From: a virus
Length of the DNA: 64,000 bases
Virus record (IMG/VR): IMGVR_UViG_3300027965_000004
Coordinates: 1-64,000 of that record
Reading direction: 5' to 3' (one strand)
The notes beneath the pieces were generated by a model, which saw only the letters and a program-made list of their open reading frames with translations, had not been told where the DNA came from and ran no database searches. The position numbers and the translations under genes were made by a program. Positions 4,557 to 62,420 of this stretch are shown here, one piece after another (positions within the stretch are counted from its first letter, which is position 1; the number at the start of each line of letters is the position of its first letter).

Positions 4557-4821
4557 CCCGCGCCTGCACGGCCCGGAGAAATGCCCGCGGACCTGTTCGG
4601 AGTGTAGCGGCCGGCACCACTGGATTGACACGGGGTTTGACCCGACCTGCGAGGACCCCGATGACGAGATGGACGACGGCACAGCCCGCGCCGTCCTGGA
4701 TTACGACCGACGGCACGGCACCGAGCACGCGCTGGCCTACTTCGCCTGCAAACACTGCCCGGCCTGGGCGGAGTGCGATTACGTGTGGGAACTGGAAGAG
4801 GACGCGGAGGACGAAGCGTGA
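4549..4821 (+). CDS. Cys-rich acidic hypothetical protein
   Basis: This 90-residue ORF overlaps the previous stop by eight bases. It has CPRTCSECSGRHHW at the N-terminus and CKHCPAWAECDYVW near residue 68, enough Cys/His for two zinc-binding knuckles, and an acidic tail. Its stop overlaps the GTG of the VRR-NUC gene, so the two are likely translated together. No family recognised. Confidence 0.55.
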   Translation: MPDPRLHGPEKCPRTCSECSGRHHWIDTGFDPTCEDPDDEMDDGTARAVLDYDRRHGTEHALAYFACKHCPAWAECDYVWELEEDAEDEA

Positions 4822-5165
4822 AAAAGCCCACCGAAACCGACCTGGTGCGCCAGTGCCTCGAATACCTGTGGCTCCGCGGCCACTTCGCCTGGCGGCAGAA
4901 TCAGGGCGGCGTCACGGCCACCTACCAGGGCAAGCGGCGCTACGTCCGCTTCGCCCGGGTGGACGGGATCAGCGACATCATCGGCGTGTTGGGGCCGGCG
5001 GCTTCCTGGCCGGGCCGGTTCCTGGCGGTCGAGGCCAAGATCCGCCCGAACCGGCCCACGCCGGCACAGTGGGCTTTCCTCGGGGCGGTGACGACGGCCG
5101 GGGGCCTGGCCGTGGTCTGTTACGACCTGGACGATTTGCGTCGGGTATTGGGGGACATCGCATGA
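4818..5165 (+). CDS. VRR-NUC domain nuclease
   Basis: The 115-residue protein starts at a GTG in a GTGA overlap. It carries GISDIIGV (active-site Asp) and FLAVEAKIRPNRPTPAQ (the ExK pair followed by the conserved T-P-x-Q), then AVVCYDLDDLRRVL. These are the hallmarks of stand-alone phage VRR-NUC proteins, a branch of the PD-(D/E)xK nucleases. The family is linked to branched-DNA processing in replication or repair. It sits between replication and methyltransferase genes and overlaps the following gene by ATGA. Confidence 0.8.
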   Translation: MKKPTETDLVRQCLEYLWLRGHFAWRQNQGGVTATYQGKRRYVRFARVDGISDIIGVLGPAASWPGRFLAVEAKIRPNRPTPAQWAFLGAVTTAGGLAVVCYDLDDLRRVLGDIA

Positions 5166-6160
5166 CATGGGAACTGATCCAAGGAGACTGTCTGGAAATC
5201 CTTGCGGGCCTGCCCGCGGACAGCGCCGACCTGGTGTTCGGCTCGCCGCCTTACGAGCAGGCGCGGCTGTACCTGGAAAACGGCGACGACCTGGGCATCG
5301 CCCGCGACACCGAGGCGTGGGTCGCCTGGATGGTCCAGGTCTTCCGCGCTTCCCTGCGCGTGTGCAAGGGACTCGTGGCGTTCGTGGTGGAGGGGCAGAC
5401 CAAGGGCTACCGCTGGAGCGCCGGGCCGGCGCTGCTGATGGCCGACCTGCACCGGGCCGGCATCCATCTCCGCAAGCCGCCCGTCTACAAGCGCGTGGGG
5501 ATTCCCGGCTCCGGCGGCCCGGACTGGCTGCGCAACGACTATGAGTTTATCGTCTGCGCCACGCGCGGCGGCCGGTTGCCCTGGTCTGACAATACCGCCT
5601 GTGGGCACCCCCCGAAGTGGGCGCCGGGCGGGGAGATGTCGCACCGGCTGACCGACGGGACGCGCTGCAACCAGTGGGGCGGACACCCGAGGTCCTCACA
5701 GCAACGGCGGCGCGACGGCAGCCGGCAGCCGCCGGCGCGGCCGAGCCATGTGTTGCAGACGGTCGCCGAGGCCGGCCGCGCGGCCGGCGAACCGCTGCCG
5801 GTCAAGAACGGGGCGACGCGCGGCTACCAGAACGGCGACACCAGCAACGACGGCCGTTACAAGCCGCCGGCCCTGGCCAACCCCGGCAACGTGATCGCCG
5901 TGAACGTCGGCGGCGGCCAAATGGGAAACGAGCTGTGCCATCAGAACGAGGCGCCGTTCCCCGAGGCCCTGGCCGAGTTCTTCGTGCGCTCCTTCTGCCC
6001 GGTGGGCGGAAAGGTGCTGGACCCCTTCTCAGGATCGGGAACAACGGGCGCCGTGGCCGTGCGCTGGCAACGTGACTTCCTGGGCATCGACATCCGGGAA
6101 AGCCAGGTCGCGTTGTCGCGCAAGCGGATCAGCCAGGAAACGCCCCTGATGTTTACCTGA
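5162..6160 (+). CDS. DNA methyltransferase, class beta, predicted N4-cytosine
   Basis: The 332-residue protein has catalytic motif IV as SPPY at residues 28-31 and the S-adenosylmethionine motif as DPFSGSGTT near residues 287-295, the class beta order. SPPY usually marks N4-cytosine enzymes, though some modify adenine. FLGIDIRESQVALSRKRI follows as expected. A long central region (about 140-230) is probably the target-recognition domain. No cognate restriction enzyme lies next to it, so it acts as an orphan, most likely protecting phage DNA. The start is on an ATGA overlap with the nuclease gene. Confidence 0.82.
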   Translation: MTWELIQGDCLEILAGLPADSADLVFGSPPYEQARLYLENGDDLGIARDTEAWVAWMVQVFRASLRVCKGLVAFVVEGQTKGYRWSAGPALLMADLHRAGIHLRKPPVYKRVGIPGSGGPDWLRNDYEFIVCATRGGRLPWSDNTACGHPPKWAPGGEMSHRLTDGTRCNQWGGHPRSSQQRRRDGSRQPPARPSHVLQTVAEAGRAAGEPLPVKNGATRGYQNGDTSNDGRYKPPALANPGNVIAVNVGGGQMGNELCHQNEAPFPEALAEFFVRSFCPVGGKVLDPFSGSGTTGAVAVRWQRDFLGIDIRESQVALSRKRISQETPLMFT

Positions 6161-6421: not shown

Positions 6422-6768
6422 CGAAGTTCCGGGACGGCCCGGCCGCGGGCGTGGTCCTGACGCTCCGCCGGGCGCCGATCTTCCTGCGCGTGGTGCGCGA
6501 CCCGGCCGGCATGTGGGACGGGCTCGACCAGCTCGCCGACACGCCCGCGCCCGCGGAAGCGGTCTGCGCCTACCGCAAGGTGTCCGACGACGGCACGATC
6601 CATGTGGACGGCGGCCGCGATGGGCGACGCTTCGGCCTCTGGCTGGCCGCCGCCACCTATGAGTACGTCGAGCCGCAACCCGCGGAAGGGGTCATGCGGG
6701 TGAACGAGGCCTGGCGGGCGTGGTGTCAGGCCGAGTATGCCAGGATCAAAGGGGGGCGCGATGCCTAA
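6418..6768 (+). CDS. Hypothetical protein, 116 aa
   Basis: No domain recognised. The protein is mixed alpha/beta in composition with VLTLRRAPIFLRVVRD near the start and a C-terminal helix rich in Trp (EAWRAWCQAEY). It is coupled upstream by ATGA and overlaps the start of the cytosine-C5 methyltransferase by eight bases. The position suggests an accessory to DNA modification, but nothing in the sequence proves this. Confidence 0.5.
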   Translation: MTKFRDGPAAGVVLTLRRAPIFLRVVRDPAGMWDGLDQLADTPAPAEAVCAYRKVSDDGTIHVDGGRDGRRFGLWLAAATYEYVEPQPAEGVMRVNEAWRAWCQAEYARIKGGRDA

Positions 6769-8245
6769 ACCGATCATCCGCGCGGCCGACCTGTTCGCCG
6801 GGGCGGGCGGGTTCTCGACCGGCCTGGCGAGGGCGGCGCAGGCCCTCGGCCGGCGGCTGGAACTGGTGGCCGTGAATCACTGGCCGGTGGCGGTCGAAAC
6901 GCACGCCGCGAACCACCCGCGCGCCCGCCACTACTGCGAGCCGGTGGACGCCGTGAACCCGCGTCAGGCCGTGCCCTCGGGGAAGCTGGACCTGCTGCTG
7001 GCCGGCCCAAGTTGCACCCATCATTCTACGGCCCGCGGAGGCAAGCCGGTCAACGATCAGCATCGCGCCAGCGCCTGGTGTATCCTGCGCTGGGCCACCG
7101 ATTTGATGATCGACACGATCTTAATAGAGAACGTCAAGGAGTTCGCGTCGTGGGGCCCGCTCGGCGCCAACGGCCGGCCGCTGAAGTCGCGCCGGGGCCT
7201 CACCTTCCACGCCTTCATCGAGGCTCTGAAGTCCCTGGGCTACCGCGTGAACTGGCGCGTCCTCAACGCCGCCGATTACGGCGACCCCACGACGCGCGAG
7301 CGCCTGTTCATCCAGGCCCGCCGCGGCCGCCGCCCGATCACCTGGCCGGAGCCGACGCACTCGCCCGACGGCCGCGCCGAGTTGTACGGCCGCCGCGCGG
7401 CATGGGTGCCGGCGCGGCGCGTCATCGACTGGTCGCTCCGGGGCACCAGCATCTTCCAGCGGCCGCGGCCGCTGTCCCCCAACACGATCGCGCGGATCGC
7501 GGCCGGGCTGCGCAAGTTCGGCGGGAAGAATGCCGAGCCGTTCCTGGTGATGCTCTACGGCAGCAACAACGCCCGCGGCATTGACCGGCCCCTGCCGACG
7601 GTGACGGCGCAGGGTCAGCACATCGGCCTGTGCGAGCCGTTCCTGGTGCCCACCAACTACGGGGAGCGGCCGGGCCAGAGCCCGCGCTGCCACGGCCTGG
7701 ACAAACCCATGCCGACCGTGGTGGGCTCGGCGACTCACGCCCTGGTTGAGCCCTTCATCGTCCACACGACCCATGACGGCCGGCGCCGGCCCAACGGCCT
7801 CGGCGAACCGCTGCCGACTGTCACCGGGGCGCACCGGGGCGAGATGGCCCTGGTTGAGCCGTTCCTGATGTCGATGTCCCAAAGTGGCAGCAACGGCGAC
7901 CGCTTGCGCCCGGCCACGAAACCGATGCCCACGGTGACGACCGCGGATGATCTGGCTGTGGTGGAACCATTCCTGGTGAAGTACAACGGCCAGGGCGGCG
8001 GCCCGCGGAGCGTGGACGAGCCCCTCGACACCATCAGCACGCGCGACCGCTTCGGCCTGGTCGAGACCGGCCGACCCGTGCTCGACATCCTCTTCCGAAT
8101 GCTCCAGCCCCACGAGTTGGCGCGAGCCATGAGTTTCCCCGCGGGGTACAAGTTCGCGGGCAACCGGGAAGATCGCGTCCGCCAGATCGGCAACGCCGTG
8201 GCCGGGCGGATCGCCGAGGCGCTGTGCTGGGCGGTGCTGGAGTGA
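6761..8245 (+). CDS. DNA cytosine-5 methyltransferase with repeated target-recognition region
   Basis: The 494-residue protein has motif I DLFAGAGGFSTGL (residues 10-22), motif IV GPSC with catalytic Cys85, motif VI IENV (122-125) and motif VIII QARRGR. Motifs IX/X lie near the C-terminus, including VRQIGNAV. Between about residues 265 and 440, where the target-recognition domain sits, an EPFLV ... PLPTVT unit is repeated about five times with variable loops. I recall this repeat architecture from phage C5 methyltransferases. The ATG at 6761 is preferred to the upstream one because of the ribosome-binding stretch and the family N-terminus. Confidence 0.88.
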   Translation: MPKPIIRAADLFAGAGGFSTGLARAAQALGRRLELVAVNHWPVAVETHAANHPRARHYCEPVDAVNPRQAVPSGKLDLLLAGPSCTHHSTARGGKPVNDQHRASAWCILRWATDLMIDTILIENVKEFASWGPLGANGRPLKSRRGLTFHAFIEALKSLGYRVNWRVLNAADYGDPTTRERLFIQARRGRRPITWPEPTHSPDGRAELYGRRAAWVPARRVIDWSLRGTSIFQRPRPLSPNTIARIAAGLRKFGGKNAEPFLVMLYGSNNARGIDRPLPTVTAQGQHIGLCEPFLVPTNYGERPGQSPRCHGLDKPMPTVVGSATHALVEPFIVHTTHDGRRRPNGLGEPLPTVTGAHRGEMALVEPFLMSMSQSGSNGDRLRPATKPMPTVTTADDLAVVEPFLVKYNGQGGGPRSVDEPLDTISTRDRFGLVETGRPVLDILFRMLQPHELARAMSFPAGYKFAGNREDRVRQIGNAVAGRIAEALCWAVLE

Positions 8246-9065: not shown

Positions 9066-9334
9066 GCGAGCGTGAACGCCACGGCCTCATTGAAGTCCCC
9101 GACCGCCGCGGCCGGCCGCTGACGTGTCTGGCCTGGTCGAGCGGCGCGGGTGCCGCGGCCGAGGGCACCGACCTGGCCGGCGTGGCCCGGACCTTGAGCG
9201 ACCAGGACCTGGCGTTTTGGGCGGCGCGCTTCCGCGAGTTGCCGGGATTGGAGTACCTGATCCTGGAGGCCGAGCAGGACCGGCGCGGGGCGGACCGGTG
9301 GGCGGGACCTTTATTCTGGAGGGATCATGGCTGA
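9062..9334 (+). CDS. Hypothetical protein, 90 aa
   Basis: This 90-residue protein starts on an ATGA overlap with the cupin gene and overlaps the DUF5131 gene by eight bases. The frame is also open far upstream, but the residues there are a shadow of the cupin gene. The C-terminal half is acidic and helical. No family recognised. Confidence 0.5.
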   Translation: MSERERHGLIEVPDRRGRPLTCLAWSSGAGAAAEGTDLAGVARTLSDQDLAFWAARFRELPGLEYLILEAEQDRRGADRWAGPLFWRDHG

Positions 9335-10256
9335 GAACACGAAAATCCAGTGGACCGATCACACCTTCAACCCGTGGCGGGGATGCACCAAGGTCTCGCC
9401 GGGTTGCCAGCACTGCTACGCCGAGACGCAGGCCGCCCGTAATCCGAAGGTTCTCGGCGTCTGGGGTCCACAAGGGACGCGGCCAGTGGCGTCAGAAAGC
9501 TACTGGCGGCAGCCTCTGAAATGGAACCGGGAGGCACAAGTGGAGGGGCGCCGCCATCGGGTCTTCTGCGCGTCGCTCGCCGACGTGTTCGAGGACCGTC
9601 CGGAGTTGGCCAAGCCCCGGGAAAGACTCCTACGCCTGATCGCCAACACGCCCGCCCTGGATTGGCAGCTCCTCACCAAGCGGCCCAAGAACATGCGCAA
9701 TCCGCTCTTCGTGTTGCCCTCGTGGCTACTCGAATGGCCGCCCCACGTCTGGGCGATGGCAAGCATCGAGAACCAAGAGTATGCCGACCACCGCATCCCA
9801 GAGCTGTTGAAGGTGCCGGCCCGCATCCGGGGGTTGAGTGTCGAGCCGCTGTTGGGGCCGGTGGACCTCACGGAGTATCTCACTGAGAAGCCGGGTTTCT
9901 CCGTCAACACCTTGGTCCGCTTTTATCGCAATCCGGATGGTTCTCCGACGACATTCAACGAACGCGGCGACGGCAAGCTGTATGACCGCGTGGTAAAGAG
10001 GCCGGCGCCACTGCACTGGGTCATCATCGGCGGCGAGTCCGGCCCACACGCCCGGCCCTGCCGGGTCGAATGGATACGGGACCTCGTCCGGCAGTGTCAG
10101 CAGGCCGGCGTGGCCTGTTTCGTCAAGCAGCTCGGCAGCAACTTCCAGGGGCTCACCCTGGAACAGTCGGTGCGCATCTTCGACCCTAAGGTCGGCGATC
10201 CCGAGGAGTGGCCCGAGGACCTGCGCGTCCGTCAATTTCCCGACACGGAGGTATGA
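9327..10256 (+). CDS. DUF5131 / phage Gp37-Gp68 family protein
   Basis: The 309-residue protein opens with KIQWTDHTFNPWRGCTKVSP, then a CQHCYAE motif. The three conserved cysteines (C-x7-8-C-x2-C) look like a radical-SAM-type iron-sulfur site. The motifs DVFED, LLTKRPKNM, LSVEPLLGPVDL and VIIGGESGPHARPC are the other conserved blocks of the family. These proteins are common in phages and mobile elements. Their chemistry is not established to my knowledge. The position between a cupin and an ATPase could suggest a nucleic-acid-modifying cluster. Confidence 0.85.
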   Translation: MAENTKIQWTDHTFNPWRGCTKVSPGCQHCYAETQAARNPKVLGVWGPQGTRPVASESYWRQPLKWNREAQVEGRRHRVFCASLADVFEDRPELAKPRERLLRLIANTPALDWQLLTKRPKNMRNPLFVLPSWLLEWPPHVWAMASIENQEYADHRIPELLKVPARIRGLSVEPLLGPVDLTEYLTEKPGFSVNTLVRFYRNPDGSPTTFNERGDGKLYDRVVKRPAPLHWVIIGGESGPHARPCRVEWIRDLVRQCQQAGVACFVKQLGSNFQGLTLEQSVRIFDPKVGDPEEWPEDLRVRQFPDTEV

Positions 10257-10259
10257 CGC

Positions 10260-11987
10260 ATGACCAAGCTGCGAATCGCCGACGGCCTCTCCCTGCCCCT
10301 GGACGCGGTAACGCAGTCCTTCGGCGTACTGGCGAAAAGGGGCGCCGGAAAGTCTTATTTAGCGTCCGTGCTGGCCGAGGAGATGCTGAAGGCCGGCCAG
10401 CAGATCCTCGCCATCGACCCGACCGGCGCCTGGCACGGTCTGCGCAGCTCCGCGGACGGCAAAGGGCCGGGGTTCCCGGTGGTGATTCTCGGCGGCGAGC
10501 ACGGCGACGTGCCGCTGGAGGAGTCGGCCGGCGAGGTGATCGCCACGGCCGTCGTGCGGCATCGCTTCCCCGCCGTCCTGGACCTGTCCCTTTTCCGCAA
10601 GGGCCAGCTGATCCGCTTCATGGTGACGTTCGCCGAGACGCTCTACCGCCTCAACCGGGAGGCCGTCCACCTGTTCGTGGACGAGGCCGACGCCGTGGCC
10701 CCCCAGGGGCGCACCTACGGCGGCGACGAAAACCGGATGTTGGGCGCCATGGAGGACATCGTCAGGCGCGGCCGCAAGCGCGGCATCGGCTGCACGCTCA
10801 TCACCCAGCGCCCCGCGGTCATTAACAAGAACGTGCTCACCCAATGCGAGAGCCTCTTCGCCCTGCGCATGGTCCACCCGAAGGATATTGACGCCATCGG
10901 CGAATGGGTCAACGTCCACGCCGACCCGGGCGAGGCCCAGGCGGTCATCGCCAGCCTGCCCAGCCTGCCCGTGGGCACGGCCTGGTTCTGGTCGCCGGGC
11001 TGGATGGGGACGCTCCAGCAAATCGAGGTCCGCCGGCGCGAGACGTTCGACAGCGGCGCCACCCCCAAGCCCGGGGAAACCGTGCGGGCGCCGCGCGGCC
11101 GGGCGGAGATCGACCTGGATGCTCTCGGCGAACAGATCAAGGCCACCGTCGAGAACGCGAAGGAGAGCGACCCGCGTGAGCTGCGCCGCCGGATCGCCGA
11201 GCTGGAACGGCAGCTGCGGGAGCGGCCGGCCGCGGAGCCCGTGCGCGTCGAGGTGCCGGTATTGAATGACGGCCAATTGGAGCGGCTCCAGCTCCAGGTG
11301 GCCGCCCTGGCGGAAGCCGGCGCGCGGCTGACGGGCTTGGCCGATGAGCTTCGTGCGGATATTGCCCGCGCCACGACAAAACCCGTGTCCAAGATGCCGA
11401 GCCCCATGCCGCGGCCAAACCCGGGCGGGGCAACAACTTCAGGCAGGGGTGTCCATCATACCGACACCCTTATACGCGGCGATATACGTGGCGCCAGCGA
11501 CCTATCCGGCCCGGAGCAACGCATCCTCGATGAACTCGCCGAGTTGGAAGCCATCGGCGTTCCCGTGCCCGACAAGGTGCAACTGGCCCTCTTCTGCGGC
11601 TACACCAACGCCCGCTCGGGCGGCTTCAGCGAGCCCCTGGGGGCGCTGGTCAAAAAGGGGCTGGCCAGCTACCCGCGGGCCGGACGTGTGTCCCTGACCG
11701 ACGCGGGCCGCGCCGCCGCCCAGGCCCCGGGCGCGGTGCGCACGACCGAAGACCTGCACACGCGCGTGCTGGGCAAGCTGGACGGCCCCCGGGCGCGCAT
11801 CCTCCGCGAGCTGATCGCCGCCTATCCGGCGGACGTGGACAAGACGGAGTTGGCGGCCCGGCTGGGCTACGGCAACCCGCGCTCGGGCGGGTTCACGGAA
11901 CCGCTGGGCAGCCTGCGCAGCCTCGGCCTGATCCACTACCCGGCGCCGGGCCGGGTGGCGGCGCTGCCGGTGTTGTTCCTGGAATGA
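10260..11987 (+). CDS. HerA/FtsK-like ATPase with two C-terminal winged-helix repeats
   Basis: The 575-residue protein has a Walker A at AKRGAGKSYLA (residues 25-35), a Walker B at LFVDEADAV (near 138) and an arginine-rich RRGRKRG segment with a QRPA sensor motif, as in HerA/DUF87 ATPases. A coiled coil follows at about 300-345. A low-complexity Ser/Pro/Gly linker leads to two homologous domains, near 418-485 and 510-570. Each contains a GYTNARSGGFSEPLG- or GYGNPRSGGFTEPLG-type block, so they are probably winged helices made by duplication. It may be a DNA translocase or a loader. Overlaps the next gene by ATGA. Confidence 0.72.
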   Translation: MTKLRIADGLSLPLDAVTQSFGVLAKRGAGKSYLASVLAEEMLKAGQQILAIDPTGAWHGLRSSADGKGPGFPVVILGGEHGDVPLEESAGEVIATAVVRHRFPAVLDLSLFRKGQLIRFMVTFAETLYRLNREAVHLFVDEADAVAPQGRTYGGDENRMLGAMEDIVRRGRKRGIGCTLITQRPAVINKNVLTQCESLFALRMVHPKDIDAIGEWVNVHADPGEAQAVIASLPSLPVGTAWFWSPGWMGTLQQIEVRRRETFDSGATPKPGETVRAPRGRAEIDLDALGEQIKATVENAKESDPRELRRRIAELERQLRERPAAEPVRVEVPVLNDGQLERLQLQVAALAEAGARLTGLADELRADIARATTKPVSKMPSPMPRPNPGGATTSGRGVHHTDTLIRGDIRGASDLSGPEQRILDELAELEAIGVPVPDKVQLALFCGYTNARSGGFSEPLGALVKKGLASYPRAGRVSLTDAGRAAAQAPGAVRTTEDLHTRVLGKLDGPRARILRELIAAYPADVDKTELAARLGYGNPRSGGFTEPLGSLRSLGLIHYPAPGRVAALPVLFLE

Positions 11988-12817: not shown

Positions 12818-13093
12818 ATGGAATCCCGCTTCTGCGCTTTCTGCCGATCGTCGCAACCCGTCCGCCTCAACCGCACGCAGGTCCGTTGTGGCCGGTGTGG
12901 CGCCTTCCTGGCCCGACACCGGGGCGGCAAGGTCCTGGCCGGACCGCCGCGTGTGACGCCGCCCGTGCCGGCGCCCCTCCCCGGGGAAGAAGCGGCCGAC
13001 GCGGGCGCGGACCCCAAGCCGAAGCGGGGCGGGTTCTGGGGCCGGTTGGGTGCCTGGGGCGCGGCCAAGGCGTTCGCCCGACGCTTCCGGTGA
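12818..13093 (+). CDS. Zinc-ribbon protein, 91 aa
   Basis: It begins MESRFCAFCRSS and contains VRCGRCGAFL at about residues 23-32, a four-cysteine zinc ribbon, then a Pro-rich linker and a basic C-terminal helix (RLGAWGAAKAFARRF). It is the first gene after a predicted promoter and sits four bases before the sponge gene, so the two are probably co-expressed. A start 60 bases upstream is open but precedes the likely transcription start. Confidence 0.5.
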   Translation: MESRFCAFCRSSQPVRLNRTQVRCGRCGAFLARHRGGKVLAGPPRVTPPVPAPLPGEEAADAGADPKPKRGGFWGRLGAWGAAKAFARRFR

Positions 13094-13097
13094 TCCC

Positions 13098-13505
13098 ATG
13101 TCCCGGTCCCGTTCCCCGTCCCGGCCCTTGTGCGAGTGCGGCCGGCCGGCGCTGGCCCTGGGCCGCGTGCGTGCCCGCTCCAGCCGCCAGACCCGGGCCC
13201 GCGTCCCCGTTCATCTCAAGGGGCATGACTACTGCCTGGCGTGCTACCGCCGGATGCTGGACGGCTACGACGCTGGCCGCTTGCCACCGAGAATCTGCAT
13301 GGACCTCGACAACATTTTCACCTACCACCCGCCGACCGCCGAGGACTTGGCCCGTTACGATGCCATCCGGGACGCGGCCAAGGAGTTCGCCCGCGTGCTG
13401 CTGGCCAACACGCCGCGGTGTGCCGATCAAACGGCCGCGGTGCGTAAGGTCCGCGAGGCTGTGATGACCGCCAACGCCGCCGTCGCGCTCAAGGGTGTCG
13501 TTTAA
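13098..13505 (+). CDS. Predicted Acb2/Tad1-type cyclic-nucleotide sponge with N-terminal Cys module
   Basis: The 135-residue protein ends in a helical hairpin domain (about residues 70-132). It has the signature NIFTYHPPT, LARYDAIRDAAKEFARVL and the C-terminal EAVMTANAAVAL. This pattern (YHPPT, RYxxIR, AVMxANAAxA) is the one I know from Acb2/Tad1 hairpin proteins, which bind and sequester cyclic di- and trinucleotides or gcADPR and so block CBASS and Thoeris defence. The N-terminal 55 residues add a separate zinc-like module (CECG at 12-15, CLAC at 46-49) with a very basic stretch between. The identification rests on motif memory and needs a profile search. Confidence 0.68.
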   Translation: MSRSRSPSRPLCECGRPALALGRVRARSSRQTRARVPVHLKGHDYCLACYRRMLDGYDAGRLPPRICMDLDNIFTYHPPTAEDLARYDAIRDAAKEFARVLLANTPRCADQTAAVRKVREAVMTANAAVALKGVV

Positions 13506-13517
13506 CCTCTCCGTTTT

Positions 13518-14360
13518 ATGCCGCGCCGTCGTCTCCCCGTCTGGTTCCGCGAGCACGAGGCCGCCGCCCTGGTGGCCGCGGCGCGGAGCGACCGCGACCG
13601 GCTGCTGGTGATGGTGGGCCTCTACTGCGGGCTGCGGGTCAGCGAGATCGTGGGGCTGGAAATCCCCGACGTCGACCTGGACACGGCCGGCCTGATGGTC
13701 CGCCACGGCAAAGGCGACAAGGACCGGATGGTGCCGATCCCGGCCGGGCTCTTGGCCGCGCTCGCGGCCTGGATCGGCGGCCGGCGCATCGGCTACCTCT
13801 TCCCCGCCGAAAAAGGGGACGGCCATTTGTCCGTCCGGACCGTGCAACGGGTGCTGAAGCGTGCCGGCAAGGCGGCCGGGCTGCCGAATTGGCAGGTGCC
13901 GCGCAAGTGTACCCCGCACAAGCTCCGGCACACGTATGCCACGACGCTCTTGAACGAGGCCGGGGCCAACATCCGCGAGCTTCAGCAGTTGCTCGGTCAT
14001 TCCAGCGTGGCCACGACCGAGGTATACGCCCACGTGATCCCCGGCCGGTTCAAGGGGCTGGTGGACCGACTCGACTTTGGGACGAAAGCGACACCGCCAC
14101 CGGCCCCGACCCCCGTACCCCCCGACCAATCCGACACCGGAGAACCCCCCGCATGTCCGCCATCCTCCGTACCGACTTCGACGCCCCCGCCGACCCCTCC
14201 CCTGATGAAGCCGGCAGCAGTGCCGGACCCGGCGACGGCGATGCTCCCGGAACCAAACCCGCATACCTCCAGGGATTCGCCCCCCTCGCCAACCTCGCCC
14301 AGATGTGCAACGAATTCCACGACGCCGGCTATGAGCCCATCCACTACACTCCCGCCGTGA
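13518..14360 (+). CDS. Compact tyrosine recombinase lacking the N-terminal core-binding domain
   Basis: All catalytic residues are present: GLRVSE (Arg40), HGKGDKDR (Lys65), TPHKLRHTYA (His134, Arg137), LGHSS (His161) and Tyr170. The catalytic domain starts at residue 1, so the usual SAM-like core-binding domain is absent. After about residue 190 the protein becomes Pro/Thr/Ser-rich. From 14153 on it overlaps the next ORF by 208 bases, so the tail may be disordered or a by-product of lost stop codons. It may resolve dimers, or be a second integrase. Confidence 0.75.
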   Translation: MPRRRLPVWFREHEAAALVAAARSDRDRLLVMVGLYCGLRVSEIVGLEIPDVDLDTAGLMVRHGKGDKDRMVPIPAGLLAALAAWIGGRRIGYLFPAEKGDGHLSVRTVQRVLKRAGKAAGLPNWQVPRKCTPHKLRHTYATTLLNEAGANIRELQQLLGHSSVATTEVYAHVIPGRFKGLVDRLDFGTKATPPPAPTPVPPDQSDTGEPPACPPSSVPTSTPPPTPPLMKPAAVPDPATAMLPEPNPHTSRDSPPSPTSPRCATNSTTPAMSPSTTLPP

Positions 14361-14485
14361 TGCCCGCCGGCCAGGTCGTGAGGCCGGACGGTCAGGCGCC
14401 CGCGGTGCCGGGGCAGCTGGTGCTGTTCCGGCTGCGGGGCGGGGAGACTGAGGCGGCGGCCGGCTGTTGCCGGGTGGCCGCATGA
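14153..14485 (+). CDS. Hypothetical protein, 110 aa, overlapping the recombinase tail
   Basis: It starts MSAILRTDFDAP within the recombinase gene and is preceded by a weak ribosome-binding stretch. The C-terminal half (LANLAQMCNEFHDAGYEPIHYTPAVM) looks better conserved than the N-terminus, and composition suggests this frame rather than the recombinase frame is the coding one after 14153. It ends on an ATGA overlap with the next methyltransferase. No family recognised. Confidence 0.5.
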   Translation: MSAILRTDFDAPADPSPDEAGSSAGPGDGDAPGTKPAYLQGFAPLANLAQMCNEFHDAGYEPIHYTPAVMPAGQVVRPDGQAPAVPGQLVLFRLRGGETEAAAGCCRVAA

Positions 14486-15462
14486 ACGCCGACGCGCGCT
14501 TGATTCGCGGGGACTGCTTGAAGGTGCTGCCCACGTTGGGGGTAGGATCGGTGGATGCCGTCGTGACCGATCCGCCCTATGGCCTGAAATTCATGGGCCA
14601 GAATTGGGATCATGGCATTCCCGGCGTGTCATTTTGGTCGGCGACCTTCCGGGTGCTGAAGCCCGGCGGCTACCTCTTGGCCTTTGGCGGCCCGCGGACC
14701 TTCCATCGGCTGGCCAGCGCCATCGAGGACGCCGGATTCGTAATTCAGGATACGCTTTGTTGGCTTTACGGCACCGGTTTTCCCAAGCACAAGAGCAAGC
14801 TCAAGCCAGCTTGGGAGCCGATCATCATGGCCTGGAAGCCGGCACCAAGGGCAACGCCGTTGAACATTGACGAGTGCCGAGTTGCCGGGCCCGGGTGGAG
14901 TAAGCAAGACGGGCCATCCGGCGCAGGATGCAAGACAGGAAAGTTCATGGGCGTGGTTGGCCTCGGTGAGCCCACCCAGGCTAACGGCTTTCGGCGGTCA
15001 ACGTCTGGCCGCTGGCCTGCTAACGTGGTCTTGGATGACGAGGCAGCACGGTTGCTGGATGAGCAGAGCGGGGAGCGGAAGAGCGGCGGCAAGTCTGGCG
15101 CGAGCTACTTTCAGGCTACCAAGGCTGTCAACTGCTACGGCGATGGTCTGTGCGGTGCCACACCACGATTTAGCGACACCGGCGGCGCCTCGCGCTTCTT
15201 CTACTGTGCCAAAGCTTCTCGGCGCGACCGTGGCGAAGGCAACACCCACCCGACCGTGAAGCCTGCCCGGCTCCTCGAATGGCTGATCCGCCTGGTGAGC
15301 CGGAAGGGTGGTTTGATCCTGGACCCATTCATGGGCAGCGGCACTACCGGAGTCGCCTGCCGCCAGGCCGGCCGCCGCTTCCTCGGCATCGAAAAGGACC
15401 CCGCTTACTTCGCGATTTGCGAACAACGCATTGCCGAGGCACAAGCGGCACTGGCAGCCTGA
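14482..15462 (+). CDS. DNA adenine-N6 methyltransferase, class beta
   Basis: The 326-residue protein has DPPY at residues 30-33 and DPFMGSGTT at about 281-289. The HPTVKPARLLEWLIRLV block before motif I is typical of N6-adenine class beta enzymes. The central region, residues 130-240, is the likely target-recognition domain. It is the third orphan methyltransferase of the window, without a restriction partner. The start is on an ATGA overlap. It lies just upstream of the packaging genes. Confidence 0.85.
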   Translation: MNADARLIRGDCLKVLPTLGVGSVDAVVTDPPYGLKFMGQNWDHGIPGVSFWSATFRVLKPGGYLLAFGGPRTFHRLASAIEDAGFVIQDTLCWLYGTGFPKHKSKLKPAWEPIIMAWKPAPRATPLNIDECRVAGPGWSKQDGPSGAGCKTGKFMGVVGLGEPTQANGFRRSTSGRWPANVVLDDEAARLLDEQSGERKSGGKSGASYFQATKAVNCYGDGLCGATPRFSDTGGASRFFYCAKASRRDRGEGNTHPTVKPARLLEWLIRLVSRKGGLILDPFMGSGTTGVACRQAGRRFLGIEKDPAYFAICEQRIAEAQAALAA

Positions 15463-15510: not shown

Positions 15511-16206
15511 ATGGCCGGTAGCAAGAAAAAGCGACAGCAGCCCCAGGGACAGCACCGCGACGGCTCCGGCCTGACCCCCAAGCAGGCTCGTTTTGTCACG
15601 GAATACTTGTTAGACCTCAACGCCACGCAAGCCGCGATCCGGGCGGGGTTTAGCGCCAAAGCGGCCCATGTCCAGGGCGCGCGGATGCTAAGGAATGCTA
15701 AGGTCCGCGCCGCCATCGATCGCGCCCAGGCCGAGCGCGCCGGCCGTGTCCGGATCGAAGCCGATCGGGTCCTGCAAGAGATCGCCACCCTGGCCTTTAG
15801 CGACATCGGCCAGGTCCTGGACTTCACCGGGGACGTGCCCCGGCTCCGGCCGGCGCAGGAGATCCCCGAGGCGGCCCGCCGCGCCATCAGCGCCGTCAAG
15901 ACGCGGCGGTACACCGAGGGGCGCGGGGAGGATGCCCGCGAGGTTGAGGTTGTTGAGTTCAAGCTGTGGGACAAACTCGGCTCCCTCCGCGACCTCGGCC
16001 GGCACCTCAAGCTCTTTACCGACCAGCACGAGCACAAGGTTTCCGTGGACTTGAGCGGGTTATCCGATGAGCAGCTGCTACAACTCGAAACCCTCCTTCG
16101 CGCTGCCGAGTCTGGCGGAGGTTCAGGCGGAGATCGCGCGACGCAAGCCGCTGTGGCGGCCGTTCCCGGGTCCGCAGACGGAAGCGTACCTGAGCCCGGC
16201 GGATGA
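15511..16206 (+). CDS. terS: Terminase small subunit
   Basis: The 231-residue protein has GLTPKQARFVTEYLLDLNATQAAIRAGFS, an N-terminal helix-turn-helix of the Terminase_2 type (packaging-site binding), a VLQEIATLAFSDI segment and a C-terminal KLWDKLGSLRDLGRHLKL oligomerisation-type helix. The last 45 residues overlap the large subunit start. A small inverted repeat (GCGACAGAATGTCGC) lies at about 15471-15485 just before the gene. Confidence 0.88.
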   Translation: MAGSKKKRQQPQGQHRDGSGLTPKQARFVTEYLLDLNATQAAIRAGFSAKAAHVQGARMLRNAKVRAAIDRAQAERAGRVRIEADRVLQEIATLAFSDIGQVLDFTGDVPRLRPAQEIPEAARRAISAVKTRRYTEGRGEDAREVEVVEFKLWDKLGSLRDLGRHLKLFTDQHEHKVSVDLSGLSDEQLLQLETLLRAAESGGGSGGDRATQAAVAAVPGSADGSVPEPGG

Positions 16207-17698
16207 GCTGTTCTACGGCGGCGCGGCCGGGGGTGGAAAGTCTGATTTGCTGGTCGGCCTGGCCCTGACCGCCCACAAGAAGAGCCTGCTCTTGCGCCGC
16301 GAGGCCGTGCAACTGGTCGCCGTGGTGGAGCGGCTCAAGGGCATCGTCGGCACGACCGGGGCCTGGCGGTCCAGTGGCCACGGCGGCCTGATGCGCGTCG
16401 GCGGCCGGTCGGTGGAACTGGCCGGCTGCGAGCAGGAGGACGACCGGCTCAAATACCAGGGCCGCGACCACGACGCCAAACTCTTCGACGAATTAACGCA
16501 CTTCTCGCGTAGCCAATATCAGTTTATCATCGGCTGGAACCGCACGGACGACCCGCGGCAGCGCTGCCGGGTGGTCTGCGCCGGCAACCCCCCGACCAAC
16601 CCGGAAGGCCGGTGGGTGGTCGAGGAGTGGGCGCCCTGGCTGGACCAGCAGTATCCCGACCCCGCCCGGCCCGGGGAGTTGCGCTGGTACGCCATGCTCG
16701 ACGGCAAACTGGTGTGGGTGGACGGGCCGGCGTCCTTCCGGCACAAGGGGGAGGAGATCGTCCCCAAGAGCCGGACGTTCATCCCCGCGAAGGTCCAGGA
16801 CAACCCGGTGTACATGGAGACGGGGTACATGGCTCGGCTCCAGGCCATGCCCGAACCGCTGCGCTCGCAAATGCTGTACGGGGATTTCGGGGCCGGGGTG
16901 GAGGATAACCCGTGGCAAGTCATCCCAACCGAATGGGTGCGGCTGGCACAGGCCCGCTGGCAGCCGATCAACACGCGCGGCCGGGGCTTGTCGGCCCTGG
17001 GCGTGGACGTGGCCCGCGGCGGCGGCGACAAGACGGTGATCAGCCGGCGCTACGGCACCTGGTTCGCGCCGCTGGAGAAGCACCCCGGGGCCTCGACTCC
17101 TGACGGTCCGGCCGTGGCCCGCCTGGTCAAGCTAGCCAGCCTCGAAAATAAGCAGTGCGTGGTCAATATCGACGTGGTTGGGGTGGGTTCATCCCCCTAC
17201 GACTTTTGCCGCCACGCCGGCATCAGCAACCTCCACCCGATCAACTTCGCGGAGGGGACGGACCGGCGCGACCGCTCCGGCCAGCTTGAGTTTTACAACG
17301 TGCGCGCCTTTGCGTACTGGCGGCTGCGTGAGGCCCTGGACCCCTCGGGCACGGAGCAAATCGCCCTGCCGCCCGACCCGGAGTTGCTGGCGGATCTGAC
17401 GGCGGCGCGGTGGGAGATGACGCCGCAAGGGGTGAAGATCGAAAAGAAGGTGGACATTGCCAAGCGGATTGGTCGCTCACCGGATTGTGCCGACGCCTGC
17501 GTTCTCGCGAACTTTCCCTCCGCGCCCTTCGAGGTTGGCACGCCGCCGACGGGGCACGGCAACGCCATTGACCGGCTGCCGGCCGACGTGTTCGGCGGCG
17601 CCGGCGGGGGCCAGGCAACCGCGTCGGGCGCCGGTCCCGAATCCATCTGGGGTGCCGGCGGGCTGGGCGGCGGCGCTGGGGGGATGCCGGCCTGGTGA
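16067..17698 (+). CDS. terL: Terminase large subunit
   Basis: The 543-residue protein has a Walker A at GGAAGGGKSD (51-60), a Walker B at AKLFDELTHF, a coupling motif near CAGNPP and the nuclease-domain start LGVDVARGGGDKTV. A later DVVGVGSSPYDF block belongs to the RNase H-like nuclease. It cuts and pumps phage DNA into the prohead. It overlaps terS by 140 bases. A later start cannot be excluded because the first 15 residues are not conserved-looking. Confidence 0.9.
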   Translation: MSSCYNSKPSFALPSLAEVQAEIARRKPLWRPFPGPQTEAYLSPADELFYGGAAGGGKSDLLVGLALTAHKKSLLLRREAVQLVAVVERLKGIVGTTGAWRSSGHGGLMRVGGRSVELAGCEQEDDRLKYQGRDHDAKLFDELTHFSRSQYQFIIGWNRTDDPRQRCRVVCAGNPPTNPEGRWVVEEWAPWLDQQYPDPARPGELRWYAMLDGKLVWVDGPASFRHKGEEIVPKSRTFIPAKVQDNPVYMETGYMARLQAMPEPLRSQMLYGDFGAGVEDNPWQVIPTEWVRLAQARWQPINTRGRGLSALGVDVARGGGDKTVISRRYGTWFAPLEKHPGASTPDGPAVARLVKLASLENKQCVVNIDVVGVGSSPYDFCRHAGISNLHPINFAEGTDRRDRSGQLEFYNVRAFAYWRLREALDPSGTEQIALPPDPELLADLTAARWEMTPQGVKIEKKVDIAKRIGRSPDCADACVLANFPSAPFEVGTPPTGHGNAIDRLPADVFGGAGGGQATASGAGPESIWGAGGLGGGAGGMPAW

Positions 17699-34513: not shown

Positions 34514-35560
34514 ATGGCCGCCGTCCCCAGCGTAGGCGTATTGGCTCAATTCGGCCTGTCCGCGTTCGGCACCGATTCCGTGACGCCCTACGCCCTGGGA
34601 TCGCCGCCGTCCATCGCCAACGCCTTCGAATTCCTGAACGAATCCCTGACCACCGAACAAGAAGTGATCCGCACCGAGGGCATCCGGGGCACGCGCCTGC
34701 ACCCCGCCGAGCGCGTCCGCCAGGGGCGCATCATTCCCGGCGGTTCGGTGTCGATGCAGCCGACCTATGCGGAGATGGTGCAACTCTTGCCGCGGATCTT
34801 CGGCGTCGGCACGGCCAATACCGGCTATACCGTGTATGCCATCGCCGAGAAGACGGGGCAAGTCACCCTGCCCGCGGGCGTGCCCGGCGGCTCGACCTTC
34901 ACCTGGTCGAGCCTGCCGCAGTATTTCCGGGCCAGCGTGGACCGCGTGGCCAAGGTGTACGTCTACGACAACGCCAAGGTGAACCGGGCCACCCTCCGCA
35001 GCGCCCCCGGCCAGCCCTTGGACGTGACCCTGGAAATCGAGGCGCTGACCGAGGCCGTCAACAACGCCGGGACCTTCCCGTCCCTCACCGTCTCGGCCAC
35101 GGCCCCCTTCGTCTTCCACGACGCGGTGATCACGCTCGGCGGCACCGTGTACCAGGTCCTGGAGCTGGAGACGACCATCGACTGGCACCTGAAGACCGAC
35201 CGCTTCGCCAACAGCCAGACGCGGACCGACCTGGTGTCACTCGACTGCACCGTCGCGACGCGCTTCACCGTGCCCTTCACCTCGGACACGGCGGCCCTGT
35301 ACAACGCCAGCGCCTGGGCCGGCGGCGTCCCGCAGACCTACCCCTACGGCATCACCGGCGTTGCCAATTTCAGCTGGGGCGGCGCCGGGCTGGGGGCCGC
35401 GGGCGTCAGCCTGGCCCTCTACTACGGCAACCTGATCTTCCCGGCCAAGAAGTCCCCCGCCGTCCAGTCCAAGGACGAGATCGGCATGGTGCTGGAGGGC
35501 GAGGCCCGCGGCGCCGGCACGGTCACGCCGCTCGCCTGCGTGCTCGACTCGACCCCGTAA
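34514..35560 (+). CDS. Major tail tube protein
   Basis: CTGAGGA before the ATG. The 348-residue protein resembles phage tail tube proteins. It has a GTRLHPAERVRQGRIIPGGS segment, a long beta-rich middle, FVFHDAVITLGGTVYQVLELE near residue 205 and a C-terminal VQSKDEIGMVLEGEARGAGT. Position before the tail chaperone pair and the tape measure fits. No sheath gene is seen in the module, so the tail is probably flexible and non-contractile. Confidence 0.7.
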   Translation: MAAVPSVGVLAQFGLSAFGTDSVTPYALGSPPSIANAFEFLNESLTTEQEVIRTEGIRGTRLHPAERVRQGRIIPGGSVSMQPTYAEMVQLLPRIFGVGTANTGYTVYAIAEKTGQVTLPAGVPGGSTFTWSSLPQYFRASVDRVAKVYVYDNAKVNRATLRSAPGQPLDVTLEIEALTEAVNNAGTFPSLTVSATAPFVFHDAVITLGGTVYQVLELETTIDWHLKTDRFANSQTRTDLVSLDCTVATRFTVPFTSDTAALYNASAWAGGVPQTYPYGITGVANFSWGGAGLGAAGVSLALYYGNLIFPAKKSPAVQSKDEIGMVLEGEARGAGTVTPLACVLDSTP

Positions 35561-61088: not shown

Positions 61089-62420
61089 ATGCCGCGCAAG
61101 CGTTCCGGGGATATTCCACCGTTAAAGCCTCACAAGAGCGGGCAGGGCCGAGTGCGCTTCCGCGAGCCGTTCCGGGGCAAGACCGACCATTACCTGGGTA
61201 AGTGGGGCACGCGCGCGGAGCAGCCCGAGACCTGGGCCGCCTACGACCGCCTGATCCGCGAGTGGCTGGCCGCCTCGCGCGGCACCCTGCCGGCCGCCCC
61301 CGCCCCGGGGCGCGTGAGCGTCAACCAGGTGCTGGCCCGGCACTGGCTCTACGTCACCAGCCGGCAGTCGCCCTACTGGAAGCTGGGCCGGCCGACCAGC
61401 CAGGTCGACCGCATCCGCCGCGCCCACGAGGAACTGTCGCGCCGCTTCGGCACGGTCCCCGCGGAGGAGATCGGCCCCAAGTCGCTCAAGGCGCTCCGCG
61501 CCGAACTGGTCATCCGGGAACACGACTGTCCGCGCTGCCGCGGGGCCGGGCAGATCACACTCCGGCGTCCGCCCGGCCGGCCGCGCAAGGGCACCCCGGC
61601 ACGCCGGGCGGTCTGCCCTTCCTGCGCCGGGGCCGGGCGCAAACGCTGGAGTACGCGCTACGTCAACTGCCTCGTCGGCTGTCTCAAGACCGCCTTCGCC
61701 TGGGCCGCCGAGGAAGAGCTCATCCCGGGCGCCGTGGCGATGGGCCTGCGCGTCGTCAAGAACCTGCCCATGAGTCACCAGGAACGGCACCGCGTCAAAC
61801 CCGTGCCCTGGGAGCAGGTCGAAGCCACGATCGCCCAGGCGCACCCCATCCTCCGGGACATGATCCTGGTCCAGTACTTGGCCGACATGCGGCCGCTGGA
61901 GGTCTGCGCCTTAAAACCCCGGCTGATCCTCGTGGACGGGCAGGTCACCGGCGGGCCGTGCTTCCCCGGCCTGTGGGTCTACGAGGCCGATGAGCAGGGG
62001 AACAAGCTGCACCACAAGGGCAAGCCGCGCGTGGTGCTGTTCGGGGCCAAGGCGCAGGCGGTCCTGGAGCCCTACCTGAAAAGCCGCGGCCCCGACGATT
62101 ACCTGTTCAGCCCCGCGGAGGCCCGCGCCGCCTGGATGCGCGCCGCCGGCCGCAAGGTCGAGCCGCCCGCCGACCGCGCGCCCGGGCCCTACTACACGAC
62201 GGCGGCGTACCGGGCGGCCATCCACAACGCCTGCGCCCGCGCCGGCGTGCCGCCCTGGAACCCCAACCAGCTCCGCCACCTGCGCAACACCGAACTGCGC
62301 AAACAGTTCGGGCTGCCGGTGGCCTCCAGCCTGTCCGGCCACGAGTCCCTCGAAACCACGCTGATCTACGCGGAGGAGGACCTGGAGGCGGCCGCCGAGG
62401 CGGTGCGGCGGATCGGCTGA
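61089..62420 (+). CDS. int: Tyrosine integrase with zinc-finger insertion
   Basis: The 443-residue protein has an N-terminal arm domain (residues 1-60) and a core-binding domain from 75 to 225. The latter is split by a DnaJ-like CPRCRGAG (147-154) and CPSCAGAG (176-183) insertion, as I recall for planctomycete integrases. Catalytic residues are Arg268 (RPLEV), Lys312 region (HHKGKPR), Arg396 (NQLRHL), His418 (SGHES) and Tyr427. The residue expected to be His before Arg396 is Asn393. It likely drives integration at the host attachment site next to it. Confidence 0.82.
   Translation: MPRKRSGDIPPLKPHKSGQGRVRFREPFRGKTDHYLGKWGTRAEQPETWAAYDRLIREWLAASRGTLPAAPAPGRVSVNQVLARHWLYVTSRQSPYWKLGRPTSQVDRIRRAHEELSRRFGTVPAEEIGPKSLKALRAELVIREHDCPRCRGAGQITLRRPPGRPRKGTPARRAVCPSCAGAGRKRWSTRYVNCLVGCLKTAFAWAAEEELIPGAVAMGLRVVKNLPMSHQERHRVKPVPWEQVEATIAQAHPILRDMILVQYLADMRPLEVCALKPRLILVDGQVTGGPCFPGLWVYEADEQGNKLHHKGKPRVVLFGAKAQAVLEPYLKSRGPDDYLFSPAEARAAWMRAAGRKVEPPADRAPGPYYTTAAYRAAIHNACARAGVPPWNPNQLRHLRNTELRKQFGLPVASSLSGHESLETTLIYAEEDLEAAAEAVRRIG

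Follow-up and report, generated by a model that had tools for sequence, protein, structure and literature searches.

A viral Acb2/Tad1-type hairpin protein with an in-frame N-terminal cysteine module, a probable cyclic-nucleotide sponge

A gene in a 71.8-kb virus record (IMGVR_UViG_3300027965_000004) encodes a protein in which an Acb2/Tad1-type hairpin is preceded by a cysteine-rich extension translated in the same frame. We analysed the first 64 kb of this record (64,000 nt; hereafter, the window), where the ORF at 13098..13505 on the + strand, which is the strand of every feature of this gene described below, opens with an ATG at 13098, ends with its stop at 13505 and gives a 135-aa product. 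The gene as a whole was delimited by its ORF, a match to PF24729, a Shine–Dalgarno-like GGTGATC and a coding signal that begins at 13098. Its C-terminal hairpin (13299..13505) belongs to the Acb2/Tad1 hairpin family, and residues 1–67 (13098..13298) make up a basic Cys module defined by in-frame coding signal. Judged from its family, the protein most likely acts as a sponge, forms a hexamer, binds ligand and has an anti-defence role. The reading that we consider probable combines an oligomeric sponge for cyclic nucleotides with an accessory segment stabilised by zinc; both the zinc and the part played by the Cys module are guesses on our part.

The original prediction of an Acb2/Tad1-type sponge was built on a motif pattern, and all of its elements were found in the ORF (YHPPT, RYDAIR and AVMTANAA). 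A search against the PF24729 profile (Acb2_Tad1_hairpin) matched residues 75–130 to profile positions 1–57 of 58 with 48.7 bits (E 8.4e-13), well above chance and past the 27-bit curated cutoff, and phrog_1454 matched the protein at E 5.4e-14. A profile made from diverse members (A2) reached PDB entry 9ptq, ‘Acb2 homolog 43’, over the whole hairpin (E 2.6e-6) and Tad1 chains in the PDB at E ∼0.035; a narrow profile (A1) searched against the PDB did not reach Acb2. Together, the profile match, this solved homologue, the predicted fold and the positions of key residues uphold the assignment of the hairpin.

Scanning of viral contigs gave at least 146 viral relatives, most of which are bare hairpins of ∼65–80 aa. 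Several have a stop-to-stop frame of only 70–80 aa and must therefore be bare hairpins, and a possible start lies no more than 13 residues from the domain in 119 of 147 distinct hairpins pooled from several searches. Among phage records, 116 were matched with the hairpin alone. Across 68 aligned sequences, R91, P106, R119, E120, A121, M123, A125, N126 and A127 were invariant, and F74, Y76, H77, P79 and Y87 were at least 90% conserved. Acb2/Tad1 hairpin proteins of Brevibacillus phage Jenst (JENST_90) and of Paenibacillus larvae phages such as Vegas, Diane and Ash are evidently misannotated as ‘phosphomannomutase’. In cyanophage S-2L, a hairpin-encoding stretch (35217-35402) sits mostly between annotated genes, with some overlap with the 5′ end of the tail assembly gene S2L_48, and is likely a missed gene.

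AlphaFold (AF2) modelling gave a pLDDT of 93–99 across most of residues 71–130, and a mean of 95.8 when residues 68–135 were modelled alone. The model has a short helix (residues 70–73) followed by two antiparallel long helices (pLDDT 97–99), the first spanning residues 81–104 (13338..13409) and the second residues 109–130 (13422..13487), which carries the invariant REAxMxANA of alignment A3. This layout matches the Acb2 protomer, a short N-terminal helix plus a helical hairpin (as in 8h2x and 7uq2). In a Foldseek comparison with 350,542 PDB chains, T4 Vs.4 with cGAMP ranked first (probability 0.93–0.98), and the list also held Acb2 (8h2x; Acb2 at rank 5–6) and Tad1 (7uaw and 7uav). The E-values were weak (≥0.5), as expected for a two-helix domain, and because so tiny a domain makes E-values weak, we take the ranking and not the E-value as evidence. 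Against a viral library, nearly all of the top 17 Foldseek matches were named Acb2/Tad1 hairpin proteins.

Two residues of the hairpin fall in register with Acb2 residues Y11 and K26, which we take to contact cyclic dinucleotides. Tyr76 (13323..13325), at least 90% conserved in alignments A3/A4, lies at the position of Acb2 Tyr11, and Arg91 (13368..13370), invariant in these alignments, at that of Lys26. The PaMx41 Acb2 reading frame, which supplies this register, is GY11RDLSQEEIDMMNRVK26 (stop-interrupted in PaMx41), and both pairs are 15 residues apart (Y-x14-[K/R]). Direct profile alignment to PaMx41 Acb2 placed the residues in the same register but at a negligible score of 1.6 bits, so the correspondence is suggestive only. 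By eye, the hairpin has no clear counterpart of Acb2 Arg67, which presumably contacts cA3. The conserved Tyr/Arg register, the fold and the solved homologue all speak for a sponge, and against the view that the hairpin serves in assembly or regulation, binds no immune nucleotide and belongs to a subfamily (REAVMTANA) to which the family name has been over-extended. That view draws on the large sequence distance to Acb2 proper and on the literature, where no tested member of the subfamily was found; the small accessory-gene setting in the sampled phages also counts against it, and we consider it unlikely, though worth keeping in mind.

Translation of the extension was assessed with a coding score that uses synonymous codon choice only. 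The 65 codons scored for the module gave +14.05 bits and the hairpin gave +14.72, whereas the 16 codons upstream of the ATG at 13098 scored −8.34 and the other two frames −13.6 to −18.1. GC content in the module was 0.88 at third codon positions and 0.64–0.67 at first and second positions. From the synonymous-codon scores we conclude that the module and the hairpin share one translated frame, which begins near 13098. Just upstream of this ATG, GGTGATC matches the extended Shine–Dalgarno sequence. A GTG at 13050 was rejected as the start, since the 16 codons before the ATG are non-coding by codon usage.

An internal ATG at 13299 (M68) sits where the bare relatives begin (MDLDNIF/MDIENIF), so a bare isoform is possible. 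A stronger proposal is that the main functional product is a bare 68-aa sponge from this ATG, which would make the Cys segment a dispensable or decaying leader. The exact agreement with the start position of the bare relatives, the several relatives in which the bare form is obligatory, and the lack of relatives of the Cys segment in viral contigs, phages and 392 genomes would fit such a product. However, the segment equals the hairpin in synonymous-codon signal and is therefore under selection as coding sequence, and GGTGATC at 13098 is a better ribosome-site match than GAG at 13299. A protein begun at 13299 would also be separated by 205 nt from the preceding gene, whose stop is at 13093. 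A predominantly bare product is, in our judgement, an unlikely but credible outcome.

The module contains two Cys pairs, C12-E-C14 (13131..13139) and C46-L-A-C49 (13233..13244), in a CxC-x31-CxxC pattern, with C67 as a fifth cysteine, and is basic (15 K/R against 4 D/E). Two Cys knuckles appeared in 4% of shuffles of its own 67 residues. A Cys4 reading is plausible, though not strongly significant by itself, and in-frame translation of the module is better supported than this reading. No family or structure match to the module was found in Pfam, PHROGs or the PDB, no relative in viral contigs, and nothing better than E 0.7 in phages. In 392 genomes of the Singulisphaera phylum there were 127 weak matches, which formed no coherent family. 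The top genome matches look like chance: in one (L142/L093), the L093 match is off-frame over a larger ORF, and the other (L143) is missing the first Cys pair. AF2 gave a pLDDT mostly below 60 over the module and predicted no strand of three or more residues within residues 1–67; because the module has no homologues, this poor predicted structure is uninformative.

As far as sequence comparison goes, the Cys-module fusion appears nearly unique among the relatives. One of them, L249 (5040-5384, 114 aa), has a strong ribosome-binding site and an N-terminal extension (MQPNCFKPKDVCVTCGKAWMNHGKVKHPFIKFERPCG...) that precedes a PF24729 hairpin and carries the Cys pattern C-x7-C-xx-C ... C; its homology to the module was not significant (shuffle p 0.03–0.05). 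The fusion had been put forward as one unfamiliar among described sponges that might add nucleic-acid or cofactor binding. At the DNA level the coding score shows it to be genuine, and it is rare, with the L249 extension as a second, differently spaced case; the Pfam, PHROG and PDB searches gave no homology support for binding of zinc, nucleic acid or a cofactor. A third Cys fusion, in L051, was rejected, as translation from a TTG preceded by AGGAGG yields a bare hairpin. Other relatives carry extensions unrelated to the Cys module: L174 (minus strand) has, before the hairpin, an in-frame N-terminal module of ∼60 aa (VKYVIAITFVDPRY...DGWYFVAYEDGYQSFSPAKQFEEG) that ends DGYQSFSPAKQFEEG, L059 has a long C-terminal domain, and MalagasyRose gp5 has both an N-terminal extension and a C-terminal domain. 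Because relatives carry such unrelated extensions, the hairpin seems to be a modular unit. The L174 architecture was missed by Pfam.

The gene starts 4 nt after a small zinc-ribbon-like ORF (12818-13093) ends. This ORF has a CxxC...CxxC pattern and a weak likeness to ribosomal S27e and MJ0042 zinc ribbons. For the module itself, our guess is a structural zinc beside the ligand pocket, the main alternative being a zinc ribbon that binds nucleic acid and would tether the sponge to RNA or DNA, or to a transcription or replication site, and so concentrate it at the source of the signal. The net basic charge of the module, its two Cys pairs and the adjacent zinc-ribbon-like ORF are in keeping with a tether; on the other side, the module matches no zinc-ribbon family, its structure is of low confidence, and GC-rich reading frames are commonly basic. 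We regard tethering as improbable.

Beyond the hairpin gene, a tyrosine recombinase fragment (13518-14360) begins after 12 nt, followed by an N4/N6 DNA methyltransferase (14467-15462), the terminase small subunit (15511-16206), a large ORF taken as the terminase large subunit (16067-17698) and then the portal gene. In the recombinase, hardly anything but the catalytic Phage_integrase domain was matched, and a Pro-rich tail comes after it; a second tyrosine recombinase gene lies in the window at 61089-62420. Upstream are a further N4/N6 DNA methyltransferase (4625-6160) and a C5 DNA methyltransferase (6737-8245). A DUF5131 gene (9327-10256), which also matches the PADLOC candidate models PDC-M41B/M30B, adjoins a HerA-like ATPase (10260-11987). 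Three DNA methyltransferases (N4/N6, C5 and N4/N6), less than 11 kb apart, flank the hairpin gene. They are likely anti-restriction, and we count this counter-defence-like setting for the cyclic-nucleotide sponge. Searches with the terminase, integrase or portal found no closely related phage that shares this gene order, and the hairpin was absent from the portions of the terminase relatives examined.

In the mechanism that we propose for the sponge, the C-terminal hairpin would assemble into a hexamer, by analogy with Acb2, and pockets between protomers would trap cyclic di- and/or trinucleotides through Tyr76 and Arg91. The trapped nucleotides would be products of CBASS-like (or type III CRISPR) immunity, whose effectors would thereby be kept off, allowing the phage to replicate. 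The co-translated, basic Cys4-type module probably binds structural zinc and may adjoin the ligand pocket, as the unrelated Tad1 beta-domain does, to tune oligomerisation or ligand choice. The zinc-bound module and the hairpin might even form a new composite pocket, specific for an immune nucleotide that bare Acb2-type hairpins do not bind. Such a pocket, which would parallel the way the beta-domain turns the hairpin into Tad1, seems to us quite improbable.

Tad1-type proteins with a beta-domain and a hairpin occur in Singulisphaera-phylum genomes (L132, L133 and L134), score below the PF24729 cutoff and, in the case of L133, match Tad1 in the PDB at E 1.9e-25. We considered whether the 135-aa protein is itself a Tad1-type sponge, with a beta-domain that diverged into the Cys module, binding Thoeris gcADPR. 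The gross layout and length are alike, an N-terminal domain of ∼65 aa plus a hairpin, with Tad1 chains of 125–138 aa. Against this, the module gave no local alignment to the L133 protein, AF2 did not predict a strand-rich N-terminal half, and the Tad1 pattern RENAxALTKIQEAxMW..RT...GVEGT is absent. The Tad1 beta-domain was rejected as the origin of the module, as the sequences fail to align, and a Tad1-type sponge is very unlikely. As it lacks the N-terminal domain of Tad1, the protein is less likely to bind gcADPR than CBASS-type cyclic nucleotides.

Acb2, Tad1 and their relatives represent a small hairpin adapted to different immune signals by the parts attached to it, and the Cys-module fusion described here, with the other Cys pattern of L249, suggests that phages equip this hairpin with further modules. 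If the module alters the choice of ligand or the dependence on metal, an undescribed signal or host defence would be implied; should it change neither, the protein would add a further member to a large counter-defence family.

Known sponges with the Acb2/Tad1-type fold act by sequestering the signals of CBASS and Thoeris (PMC12043709; PMC12657218). The closest comparison is with bare phrog_1454-type hairpins (for example, Tunturiibacter phage Tunturi_1 ORF101, and L003 and L004 of IMG/VR), which are 60–70% identical over 61–68 aa and share FxYHxP, Y..IR and REAVMTANA with the 135-aa protein, but do not have its 67-aa Cys extension. Acb2 homolog 43 (9ptq) gives a profile match to the whole hairpin, but has 76 aa and no N-terminal module. 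Acb2 of Pseudomonas phages PaMx33/PaMx41 and T4 Vs.4 have the same short helix and two long antiparallel helices, yet almost zero sequence identity to the 135-aa protein, and neither has the Cys module; the region between the helices is also longer in Acb2. In L249, a Cys-containing N-terminal extension likewise precedes the hairpin, but with different Cys spacing. Tad1 (7uav and 8kbb) also combines an N-terminal domain with a C-terminal helical hairpin; in contrast, an antiparallel beta-sheet makes up its N-terminal half (PMC12043709), which has no detectable similarity to the Cys module.
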